Shown: positions 3,090 through 57,068 of the stretch, one piece after another
Layout: every line of letters starts with the position of its first letter
How positions within the stretch are numbered: the stretch's first letter is position 1
NCBI RefSeq assembly: GCF_034259105.1
Contig: NZ_CP139478.1
Span: 631,001 to 695,000 of the forward strand
Source of the DNA: Limosilactobacillus reuteri
Lineage (GTDB): Bacteria; Bacillota; Bacilli; Lactobacillales; Lactobacillaceae
Length of the DNA: 64,000 nt
Reading direction: 5' to 3'
Notes under the pieces: model-generated
Database searches by the model: none
Told to the model about the DNA's origin: nothing
Seen by the model: only the letters and a program-made list of their open reading frames with translations
Made by a program: the position numbers and the translations under genes

Positions 3090-3358
3090 CAACATCATAA
3101 ATGACAGTGAACAGACTAGTAGAGCTTTAAGCATTGCAAAGAAAGTCCTTAATGATGGGAAGGGATCAATGTTTCGGCTTGAATCACATCTGTGAGTTGG
3201 CCTTCTGAAAGCCATAGTAGGAAGACCCGGGGAAGCCCGTTACAGCGCGGAGTTTATTTTAATGAACTCACTAAGGCTATTATTCGTGAGAAAATAGCAA
3301 GATGAGGTGGAACCGCGGAAACGCCCTCGTAGCCAGTTTAGGCTCGAGGGTGTTTTTT
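3090..3358 (+). promoter_or_regulatory. T-box leader, probably histidine-specific
   Basis: The conserved T-box AGGTGGAACCGCGG is at 3305-3318, followed by a terminator (CGCCCTCG/CGAGGGTG, then six T) at 3322-3358. Upstream lies a Stem I region with AGTA at 3118-3121 on the 5' side and GAA-T-CAC-A at 3181-3188 on the 3' side; CAGA (3112-3115) can pair with TCTG (3189-3192) below it. By analogy with characterised specifier loops (GAA, one base, codon, purine) the specifier is CAC, histidine. Uncharged tRNA would stabilise the antiterminator and switch on the transporter. Reading the frame one base earlier would give TCA (Ser), so specificity is less certain than the T-box itself. Confidence 0.88.
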
Positions 3359-54137: not shown

Positions 54138-54177
54138 AGTCATGTGGTAATAAGTCAAGATGAAATTATCACTGACG

Positions 54178-54194
54178 AACTTGTTTTGACCAGA
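54178..54194 (+). repeat. Left half of the palindrome split by IS110
   Basis: AACTTGTTTT (54178-54187) is complementary to AAAACAAGTT at 55808-55817. TGACCAGA (54187-54194) recurs at 55801-55808. Removing one repeat plus the element restores a perfect 10-bp hairpin with a GACCAG loop. Confidence 0.8.
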
Positions 54195-54276
54195 TTTTTG
54201 ACGCACTTAAATAAGCCTTGATACCAAGGTGTTTTAAAAATTAAGCGTCGAGAATCAAGTTATCTTCCTATACCAA

Positions 54277-55509
54277 TTACCTCTTCTCCTGATAGATTTG
54301 ATGATTTTTGAGTAGGAAGAAAATCACCCTGATAAGTTTACGTGCGGTAAGAACGAGGGCGCGTTTTGATGGTGTATGCTTCACTTCTTTATATTTACGC
54401 TGATAATACTCGCCAAAAACTGGATCCTGAATTCTAACGCGGTTGGCAGCTTCAACCAGATAGTATCTAAGATAAGCATTGCCAGTTCTTTTGAGTGGAG
54501 TGTTGTCACTAGCGTAACCTCCGGACTGCTTTTCTCGCCAGGAAAGCCCAGCGTACTTAGCTAGCTTAGCTTCATTATCAAATCGGTTAATTTGACCAAT
54601 TTCGGCTAAGATACCAGCAGCGTATACTGGTCCAATTCCGGGAATTGAACGCAGAACTTCTTCCTCCTTACCGATGACTTTCGTTACTTCTTCAATTGCC
54701 TTGTCGAGGTCTTTAATCATTTTCTGAAAAGCTTTAATTTCCTCGGCATAAACTGAGAGAACAGTATCAACCGAATTAGCAATTACCTTGTCTAAACGAT
54801 AAGAAGCGCGAACTGCTTTTTGAATCGTTTTTGCCAAGGCTTCAGGGTTCGCGAAGCGACCCCGACCGTGTTCATTCAGGTAATCAGCTAAATCATTAAT
54901 TGAAATGTTAAGTAAGTCATCAGTGGTCATATCTTCGGTTAACAGACTCATCATCGTCGAACCAAAGACGGAGGTATTAAGTTCATCAGAAATCACTAGT
55001 TTATTGAGCTTATAATATAAATTCTCAATAAAGTGTTGCTTGGCGCGAACTAAGCTTTGAACAAGCTCATACCGGGAACGCGTTAATCGTTGCAGGGCAA
55101 TATAGTTTTCTTGGCGAACAATCCCTGTTGAATAACGTCCAACACGTAAGAAGTCCGCAATATAAAAAGCATCAATTTGGTCATTTTTATCTTCAGCGAA
55201 GACATCATGATACCGCTTAGTTTTCTTGGGATCGATGACTACTGATTGCGTATTAAGTTTTTTGAGGTCAGCGTCTTCTTGAAAAAACATTGCGGGGTGA
55301 AAACTGTAAATGGAAGTAGCTTCCATGCCAATCACAACTTGGTCGAGATGATTTGAATTCGCCGTGTTAATAATAATGGTTTTTAATTCGGTTGCGCCTT
55401 TCAAATCATTAACAAAGTTACCTTGAAAAACAACATCACATGTTTCTTCAGAAATCATTGAAGTGACTAAATCTTTTGAGCTAACGTCAATACCGACAAA
55501 AAGTTTCAT
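54277..55509 (-). CDS. IS110-family DEDD recombinase
   Basis: The 410-residue protein has the N-terminal RuvC-like DEDD domain (FVGIDVSSKDL with first Asp near residue 8, MEATSIYSFH with Glu near 62, DPKKTKRYHDVFAEDKNDQIDA with the last Asp pair near 100-115) and the C-terminal Transposase_20 domain (SIPGIGPVYAAGILAEIG near 288 and the catalytic Ser in KRTGNAYLR near 345). It is full length. ATG 55509 has AAAGGAGGCC 9 nt upstream. Such enzymes use a bridge RNA from the same element. Confidence 0.95.
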   Translation of the reverse strand: MKLFVGIDVSSKDLVTSMISEETCDVVFQGNFVNDLKGATELKTIIINTANSNHLDQVVIGMEATSIYSFHPAMFFQEDADLKKLNTQSVVIDPKKTKRYHDVFAEDKNDQIDAFYIADFLRVGRYSTGIVRQENYIALQRLTRSRYELVQSLVRAKQHFIENLYYKLNKLVISDELNTSVFGSTMMSLLTEDMTTDDLLNISINDLADYLNEHGRGRFANPEALAKTIQKAVRASYRLDKVIANSVDTVLSVYAEEIKAFQKMIKDLDKAIEEVTKVIGKEEEVLRSIPGIGPVYAAGILAEIGQINRFDNEAKLAKYAGLSWREKQSGGYASDNTPLKRTGNAYLRYYLVEAANRVRIQDPVFGEYYQRKYKEVKHTPSKRALVLTARKLIRVIFFLLKNHQIYQEKR

Positions 55510-55800
55510 TGGAATGGCCTCCTTTCATTAAAATTTACTGGTCTTAATCTGATCACTGCATGATAGCCCCTAATTACAATCACTAAAAACATCCTCGCAA
55601 GTATCAGTATTCATTGGTTAGAGAGTCAAAGCTGCACCTAATCCTACTCTGAATTAGCAAACTTTCTAATCGATACAGCATGTGAGTTCGAAAATCAGTT
55701 GATTGTCTGGGCGGCAGACTTTTTAAGTAGTTAAAACTACAGGAGAAAATAACCTATACCAGCTGACCAAAGCCAATGATAATTAGAGGTTATCATGCGG
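55510..55800 (-). ncRNA. Candidate IS110 bridge RNA region
   Basis: The 290 nt upstream of the transposase contain no gene but many local stems: ATGATAA/TTATCAT (55776-55796), GTAGTT/AACTAC (55727-55740), GTCTG/CAGAC (55705-55719), ATTAG/CTAAT (55653-55670) and an outer CTGAT/ATCAG stem enclosing a large loop (55549-55607). IS110 elements encode a bridge RNA at this position. The strand follows the transposase. Two 6-nt matches to the target core TGACCAGA lie in it (55764-55769 and, in complement, 55538-55543). Exact RNA ends are unknown. Confidence 0.55.
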
Positions 55801-55871
55801 TGACCAGAAAACAAGTTGTAATGTAACAAAATCCGTAAGGATATATTTATAGAATACGAGGAGAAAAGTCA

Positions 55872-57068
55872 ATGTCAAAAACAATTGCAGTTAACGCTGG
55901 TAGTTCAACACTTAAATTTAAATTATTTGATATGCCGAGTGAAGATGTAGTAGCTGAAGGTACGATTGAACGTATTGGTGAAAAGATGGGTCATGCTAAG
56001 ATTAAGTATGGTAATGGTCAAAAGCATGAAGAAGATAAGCCATTTGCTGATCATGCTGCCGCAGTTAACTACTTGTTAGATAAGTTAATTGAATTAAAGA
56101 TTGTGGCAAGCTATGATGAAATCACAGCAGTAGGTCACCGAATCGTTGCCGGTGGGGAATTCTTTAAGGATTCAACAATTATTGATGATGATGTTATTAG
56201 CAAGATTGATGAATTGTCAGAATATGCTCCACTCCATGAGCCTGCAGAATTAGTTGGTATTAAAGCTTTCCGTAAGGTATTACCTAATGCATTTGCGGTT
56301 GCTGTTTTTGATACATCATTCCATGTTGATATGCCAGAAATGAATGCATTGTACAGTGTGCCTTATGATTGGTATGAGAAGTATGGTGCTCGTAAGTATG
56401 GTGCTCACGGTACCAGTCACCGTTACGTATCTGCACGTGCTGCGGAAATGTTAGGAAAACCAATTGAAGAGCTTAAATTAATCACTATGCATATTGGAGC
56501 AGGTGCGTCAATCACTGCCGTAAAGAATGGTAAGTCATTCGATACATCAATGGGCTTCACGCCTGTTGCAGGAATAACAATGGCAACTCGTTCAGGGGAT
56601 GTTGATCCATCCTTAATTGCTTTTATGCAGGGTAAACTAAACTTATCCTCAGATGAGATGATTGATATTTTGAACCATAAGTCTGGTTTACTTGGTATTT
56701 CTGGTATCTCACCAGATATGCGTGATATTCTTGCAGCTGCTGAAAAGGGTGACGACCGGGCACAACTTGCATTAGATATTTATGTTAACCGCATTGTCCG
56801 TTACATTGGCGCATATATTGCTGAAATGGGTGGCGCAGATGCCATTGTCTTCACTGCCGGTGTTGGTGAAAACAGCATTCCAGTACGAAAGATGATCACA
56901 GATAAGCTTGACTACTTTGGCATTAAGATTGATCAAGAAAAGAACGACTGCCATGGTGTTGAACGTGATCTTTCCGCTGATGATGCAAAAATTAAGACAT
57001 TGTTAATTCCAACTAACGAAGAATTAATGATTGTTCGTGACATTGAACGTTTAAAGAAAAATAACTAA
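55872..57068 (+). CDS. ackA: Acetate kinase
   Basis: AckA interconverts acetyl phosphate plus ADP and acetate plus ATP. The 398-residue protein has the acetokinase motifs NAGSSTLKFKLF (residues 7-18), GHRIVAGGEFF near 86, VFDTSFH near 148 and HIGAGASITAVKNG near 211. The ATG at 55872 follows ACGAGGAGA. It is the usual neighbour of ytxK; the IS110 element now lies between them and begins about 60 nt upstream of this gene, so the promoter region on that side is new or shortened. Confidence 0.96.
   Translation: MSKTIAVNAGSSTLKFKLFDMPSEDVVAEGTIERIGEKMGHAKIKYGNGQKHEEDKPFADHAAAVNYLLDKLIELKIVASYDEITAVGHRIVAGGEFFKDSTIIDDDVISKIDELSEYAPLHEPAELVGIKAFRKVLPNAFAVAVFDTSFHVDMPEMNALYSVPYDWYEKYGARKYGAHGTSHRYVSARAAEMLGKPIEELKLITMHIGAGASITAVKNGKSFDTSMGFTPVAGITMATRSGDVDPSLIAFMQGKLNLSSDEMIDILNHKSGLLGISGISPDMRDILAAAEKGDDRAQLALDIYVNRIVRYIGAYIAEMGGADAIVFTAGVGENSIPVRKMITDKLDYFGIKIDQEKNDCHGVERDLSADDAKIKTLLIPTNEELMIVRDIERLKKNN

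Follow-up and report, generated by a model that had tools for sequence, protein, structure and literature searches.

An IS110-family element that inserts into Shine-Dalgarno sequences, very probably guided by a bridge RNA from its own left end

The window analysed here, a stretch of 64,000 nucleotides from Limosilactobacillus reuteri, contains an IS110 element on the minus strand, inserted immediately upstream of the start codon of a gene that we take to be ackA (the gene names ackA, ytxK and exoA are presumed from protein features). The element and its target comprise the following features.

54138..55860, minus strand: whole element with both core copies (1,721 bp with one core; comparison of empty and filled ackA and exoA sites)
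54277..55509, minus strand: intact IS110 recombinase, 410 aa (list of open reading frames, Pfam, NCBIfam, alignment)
54138..54139, minus strand: right-end core CT, AG on the plus strand (empty and filled sites)
55859..55860, minus strand: left-end core CT, AG on the plus strand, also the first two bases of the ackA Shine-Dalgarno (SD) sequence AGGAG (empty and filled sites)
55859..55874, plus strand: target, the ackA SD AGGAG and start codon, ATG at 55872 (empty sites, site table)
54178..54187, no strand: internal inverted arm in the right end, half of the palindrome of an earlier, sequence-only reading (arms in 3 of 13 element types)
55808..55817, no strand: internal inverted arm in the left end (likewise)

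The recombinase, correctly recognized by the sequence-only reading as an intact DEDD/Ser enzyme, has both IS110 Pfam domains and scores 236.1 bits against the NCBIfam profile “IS110 family RNA-guided transposase” (cut-off 140). In an alignment of 17 proteins, none departs from D8, E63, D110, D113 or S329-G330, and the relatives from outside the L. reuteri group are 46-60% identical to the recombinase; these residues are the motif counterparts of D11, E60, D102, D105, S241 and G242 of IS621 (PMC11208160, PMC11208158). ISCro4 and IS621 are its best PDB sequence matches and also came first in a fold search, with low TM-scores of 0.31-0.33 on the query, using a structure model of modest quality (mean pLDDT 75.1, pTM 0.50). 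The protein exceeds the IS621 recombinase (328 aa in the PDB chain) by about 80 residues, and the model shows helices at residues 183-214, partly of low confidence, inserted between two long helices.

The source genome (G000) carries two copies of the element, the window copy before ackA and another before exoA, which are identical to each other over 1,731 bp, far beyond the inverted arms that were initially thought to delimit an element of 1.6 kb. Matches to the element were found in 8 of 50 genus genomes, own genome counted, at 22 places among the matches listed; the left end could be located at 15 of these loci and the right end at 11. The outer left flank (CTCCTCGTAT..., minus strand) is recognizable, if variable, in 14 of the 15 left ends, L024 retaining its outermost part only, and the outer right flank (...TTGACTTATTACCACATGACT, minus strand) likewise in all 11 right ends. 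Ends of the same kind occur in relatives from Enterococcus and other Bacilli. The identity of the two G000 copies past the arms and the outer flanks that travel with the element thus contradict the arms as ends.

Comparison of empty and filled sites at two loci places the ends about 40 bp outside the arms. For ackA, 30 loci were found, and upstream DNA was read for those in the displayed orientation, loci in the opposite orientation being left out. Among the loci with upstream DNA displayed, the site is empty in G034, G037 and G007 (TTACGTTAAAGGAGAAAAGTCAATG), and the filled site of the window reads TTACGTTAA-AG-(element)-AG-GAGAAAAGTCAATG. The exoA site is empty in G034 and G004 (AAATAAAAAGGAGAAATAGCTGTG) and filled by the second G000 copy as AAATAAAA-AG-(element)-AG-GAGAAATAG. 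These comparisons establish a core of AG (CT on the element strand) in place of the GACCAG core proposed earlier, a length of 1,721 bp, and the SD sequence as the target; the 2-bp core is not accompanied by a longer target duplication at either locus. Within the ackA SD sequence, the insertion point is AAAGGAGAAAA. Counting cores, the non-coding left end measures 351 bp and the right end 139 bp. G037 encodes a 99%-identical recombinase at exoA and at another gene, yet its ackA site is empty. Three further configurations were encountered. At L043 (G035), the SD stretch seen in L040 and L042 is missing, and the stop codon upstream runs straight into the ackA start codon (GTTAAATGTC). L024 (G049) is a relic of a left end, about 100 bp long and lacking the recombinase, which runs from position 925 on the reverse complement and still lies at an SD preceding a start codon. 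At L094 (G611) and L098 (G509), the DNA past the right end is CT-CGTAT, which resembles the element's own left end and perhaps reflects re-insertion at a site already holding a relic left end.

Most insertion sites precede start codons. We counted as qualifying a start codon of an open reading frame of at least 60 codons located 11-15 nt from the first core base; 52 of 58 distinct insertion sites lie directly before such a start and 6 of 58 do not, L022 and L093 being kept among the latter. The first site set contained 33 left-end sites (32 distinct) from 17 element types. Thirty of the 32 distinct ones have a qualifying start, at a distance of 13 nt in 21 cases, 14 nt in 7 and 12 nt in 2, and four of the starts are GTG or TTG; without the rule on reading-frame length, 31 of 32 have a start at 12-14 nt, 22 of these at 13. 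A held-out set was counted after six short-pattern matches (L182, L183, L185, L187, L189 and L194), beyond which the sequence is not that of the element, had been dropped and four more candidate rows already present in the first set had been removed. In this set, 22 of 26 sites qualify (11 at 13 nt, 7 at 14, 1 at 12, 2 at 11 and 1 at 15). By comparison, natural AGGAG motifs preceding gene starts in stretches of four host genomes lie at 13 nt in 50 of 200 cases and at 12-14 nt in 110 of 200. The first set, with 22 of 32 sites at 13 nt, is more tightly spaced than these natural SDs (p = 2.4e-7), and the held-out sites deviate in the same direction, more weakly (11 of 22 at 13 nt, p = 0.01, or p = 0.04 over all 26; 19 of 22 at 12-14 nt, p = 0.002).

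Upstream of the recombinase gene lies gene-free DNA, present where the sequence-only reading had noted it, from which we predict the following RNA.

55549..55844, minus strand: predicted bridge RNA (the -10 box gives the estimated start, the closing stem the end)
55780..55807, minus strand: closing stem, 5′ strand (19-pair helix)
55549..55576, minus strand: closing stem, 3′ strand (19-pair helix)
55727..55740, minus strand: hairpin between the target guides (second helix of the covariation analysis)
55741..55749, minus strand: left target guide TTTTCTC-CT (guide-target permutation tests)
55719..55726, minus strand: right target guide TTAAAAAG (guide-target permutation)
55677..55686, minus strand: left donor guide CTCACATGCT (guide-donor permutation)
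55594..55604, minus strand: right donor guide ATACTTGCGAG, pairing discontinuously (by eye)

Left-end regions from 20 elements were aligned and then folded jointly. In 19 of 30 pairs both partners vary while remaining paired, and most of this covariation (16 pairs) falls in the 19-pair outer stem that encloses both loops. Paired cells amounted to 94.8%, against 80.4% in shuffled alignments and 33-45% when partners were slid; folded alone, the window copy gave z = -2.65. At gathering score, Rfam matched only 16S rRNA and a T-box in the window and nothing inside the element; the T-box leader (3098-3331, plus strand, RF00230, 98.9 bits) is unrelated to the element. The suggestion that a bridge RNA is encoded upstream of the recombinase thus gains support, as a prediction, from covariation and from the guide agreement described below. 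The predicted RNA has two loops, one for the target and one for the donor.

Joining the ends in a circle would bring together a promoter and the donor.

54153..54158, minus strand: -35 box TTGACT, used in the circle (TTGAC(T/A)-17-TAnnnT pattern)
55851..55856, minus strand: -10 box TATTCT (same pattern)
54140..54147, minus strand: left donor CCACATGA, end of the right end (donor-guide agreement)
55852..55858, minus strand: right donor CGTATTC, start of the left end (pairing read by eye)

By pattern, a predicted sigma-70-type promoter, TTGAC(T/A)-17-TAnnnT, spans the joined circle ends in 13 of 13 element types. It resembles the junction promoter reported for IS621 (PMC11208160, PMC11208158). 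A pattern scan revealed no outward promoter from the left end towards ackA. The integrated copy displays a promoter-like TTGACA-16-TATTCT at 55851-55878 of the window, minus strand; because TTGACA comes from the ackA start and the -10 box is the element's own, the integrated copy might transcribe its RNA without excision.

The two loops of the predicted RNA match the target and the donor, respectively, as in IS621. On the element strand, the target sites read TTTTCTC-CT-TTAACG at ackA and ATTTCTC-CT-TTTTATT at exoA. Over nine positions, left target guides agreed with their own sites at 189 of 279 letters (31 distinct sites, 16 types), against a mean of 154.1 and a maximum of 182 in 20,000 trials with guides permuted among types (p = 5e-5); here, as for the other permutation tests, the p value ignores kinship among element types. 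Guides match their sites in part, averaging about 6 of 9 letters, and because nearly all sites share CTC-CT, the signal sits at positions -4 to -8. The relic type X (L024) has no guide and was outside the test. At held-out sites, agreement reached 100 of 144 letters versus 71.4 for other guides (p = 4e-4; 16 sites, 3 types), and the element's own guide ranked first in all three types over nine positions, with one tie for first at -4 to -8. Those 16, out of 26 held out, come from G023 (11 sites), G061 (3) and G200 (2); the contigs of G046 and G368 end before the guide, L190, L193 and L197 (G061) look degenerate, and these, with L199, fell outside the test. On the right side of the target, 55 of 88 letters agreed versus 36.0 permuted (p = 1.5e-4; 22 sites, 13 types): the right guide of type O predicts CT-GCT and its site has CT-GCT, and type I gave 0 of 4 matches. 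Guides that differ between elements therefore go with differing targets.

Agreement extends to the donor. The left donor stretch before the core (CACATG, CACAAG, CACTAG, CGCAGG or CGCTGG) recurs in the guide of 15 elements, with 98 of 105 letters agreeing versus 74.4 permuted (p = 5e-5); the L018 copy (G037) has one mismatch, and the donor contains an extra base (A, T or G) between the left stretch and the core that is absent from the guide. Read by eye, the right donor guide consists of CGAG, a G facing T, 2-4 unpaired bases, and AU or UU, facing CTCGTAT or CTCGTAA, which resembles the pattern of flipped-out bases and a G-T pair described for IS621 (PMC11208160, PMC11208158). Two hexamers put forward earlier as guides lie away from these positions: 55538-55543 adjoins the 3′ strand of the closing stem and 55764-55769 falls in a small predicted hairpin.

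In most cases the left target guide has CUC-CU at its end, as does the anti-SD of 16S rRNA; the window's own 16S gene ends in GGATCACCTCCTTTCTAA (from 63882). Close to the core, most guides and right targets carry the anti-SD string CTC-CT-TT; types diverge further out, and TT on the right is not specified in types F, G, H, O and C. A guide directed against SDs would in any case be expected to show this resemblance. L188 and L192 (G200) have the guide UUCACCC-CU and the targets CTTCACCT-CT and CCTCACCT-CT, an SD of the AGGTGA kind offset by two bases relative to other types.

These observations make it very probable that we are dealing with an IS110 subfamily whose insertion into SD sequences is directed by a bridge RNA from the element's left end. 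Built on the ends, core, target, conserved RNA structure and guide-target and guide-donor agreement read from the sequences, a model covering expression, excision, mechanism and the effect on the target gene would run as follows. Excision would yield a circle whose joined ends form the sigma-70-type promoter and the donor (CCACATGA-CT-CGTAT). Transcription from the circle promoter would produce an RNA of about 300 nt, in which a long closing stem would enclose a target and a donor loop. Through its left target guide, in this case UUUUCUC-CU, the RNA would pair with the gene-sense strand of the SD (AGGAGAAAA), and through its right target guide with the opposite strand just upstream of it, and the recombinase would join donor and target at the CT core. 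The recombinase gene comes to lie antisense to the target gene, which keeps its own SD and start codon while being cut off from its upstream DNA.

An alternative in which the element inserts widely, copies before gene starts survive and the RNA guide plays a minor part appears improbable. It draws on the observation that, of 38 guide-like 13-mers (11-12 of 13 positions matching) in 400 kb of G000, only 4 lie 12-14 nt before a start, most being elsewhere in the host. However, guides fit the targets of their own elements better than other guides do, at held-out sites as well, and survivorship does not predict the tight spacing of the first set, even if that of the held-out set is weaker. Because guide-like 13-mers lie mostly elsewhere, the guide alone is nonetheless insufficient to explain the sites under RNA-guided insertion into SDs: either selection removes other insertions or the start codon is also read, the preferred spacing being an argument for the start being read to some extent. 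By eye, no CAT is found at the corresponding guide position of types A, G, J and N that could pair with the start codon; helices 183-214 of the recombinase model are a possible seat of such reading. More speculatively, and with the odds in our view against it, bridge recombinases across the Bacilli might read a two-part signal, in which an anti-SD guide is combined with a second reader (the longer recombinase or another part of the RNA) that measures to the start codon, so that translation initiation regions would be recognized as a class, not as a single sequence.

The inverted arms remain to be accounted for. Both AACTTGTTTT (54178-54187) and AAAACAAGTT (55808-55817) are present, as is TGACCAGA at both inner junctions (54187-54194 and 55801-55808), but all lie inside the element and represent neither its ends nor a repeated target. 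Among the 13 types with both ends, arms are recognizable only in A, B and C, all of the L. reuteri group; in type C the two arms have changed in step (TCTTGTCTT and AAGACAAG). No arm pair is seen at the corresponding place in the ten remaining types. The left-end CTGGTC is the beginning of the 5′ strand of the closing stem. Durrant et al. give subterminal repeats of 2-3 bp for members of the IS110 group, against 7-17 bp for IS1111 (PMC11208160, PMC11208158); the 10-bp arms may thus be a longer version of such repeats. A nested origin, with an inner IS110 element lodged in a separate small repeat, about 116 bp long and mobile towards ribosome-binding sites in its own right, seems highly unlikely: arms and direct repeat do look like an old palindrome insertion, in the L. 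reuteri group only, but no empty 116-nt unit exists in G000 (matches were four half-matches of the two filled copies and four weak chance matches), and the outer parts carry the conserved -35 box, -10 box and donor and recur in armless types from Enterococcus and other Bacilli. Least credible of all is the sequence-only proposal of a 1.6-kb element in the GACCAG loop of a perfect palindrome, for the perfect arms and the repeated TGACCAGA that inspired it are outweighed by all five empty ackA and exoA sites, which lack the palindrome (the outcome that this proposal had itself named as refuting it), by outer DNA that moves with the element, and by the confinement of the arms to three of 13 types; the 26-nt palindrome itself has no match in the window, and the claim is an artefact of the internal arms.

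Recombinase matches were obtained in 10 of 251 family genomes at E<=1e-100 and in 10 of 299 class genomes at E<=1e-90, own genome counted in both, and the right-end pattern was found in 7 of 395 order genomes. The plasmid collection yielded no recombinase match; four stretches of viral contigs matched, with no confirmed relative among them. The termini, circle promoter and left-end RNA are common to relatives across the class Bacilli.

The element points to natural bridge RNAs whose guides address ribosome-binding sites, a functional class of target abundant in bacterial genomes. The many natural guide-target pairs constitute a test set for the pairing rules of bridge RNAs, and the family supplies Gram-positive bridge recombinases with a different predicted RNA layout. 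Our results also correct a plausible misreading, in which internal arms are mistaken for a target palindrome. A literature search on IS110, IS900 and bridge RNA, whose scope excluded preprints and most subscription journals, showed among the papers listed no report tying SD targeting to a bridge-RNA guide.

The element belongs to the IS110 group, as its catalytic residues, family profile, 2-bp CT core, longer left end and circle-promoter pattern attest. According to PMC11208160 and PMC11208158, it shares with IS621 a DEDD/Ser recombinase, a CT core, a long left end and an RNA upstream of the recombinase, as well as a promoter at the junction, loops for target and donor, core-containing guides and a discontinuous right donor guide. 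IS621, however, is described there as targeting REP elements and having an RNA of 177 nt, whereas the element described here targets SDs and has a predicted RNA of about 300 nt with a long stem around both loops. IS1111/seekRNA elements (PMC11187229) likewise have related DEDD recombinases, an element-encoded guide RNA and subterminal inverted repeats, but encode this RNA at the right end, past the recombinase gene, and not upstream as here, which sets our element apart from the IS1111 group. Moreover, the 10-bp arms are found here only in types of the L. reuteri group. IS900 reportedly targets translation starts, a statement for which Doran 1997 is cited. In the description of this IS110-family element of Mycobacterium avium subsp. 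paratuberculosis (PMC8141618), the target motif CATGNNNNNNTCTCCTT comprises an SD and a start codon, with a spacing that, compared by description only, is that of most sites here; insertion between upstream DNA and the SD and start codon, with the recombinase antisense, is the same choice of target. That description also includes an opposite-strand open reading frame (hed) spanning IS900, whereas the longest plus-strand reading frame listed inside our element has 62 aa. A guide RNA directed at SDs offers a molecular reason for the reported targeting of start sites by IS900. Targeting of SDs was thus already known for IS900, and SDs as target class together with the predicted RNA layout make the present element a distinct variant of bridge-RNA element.
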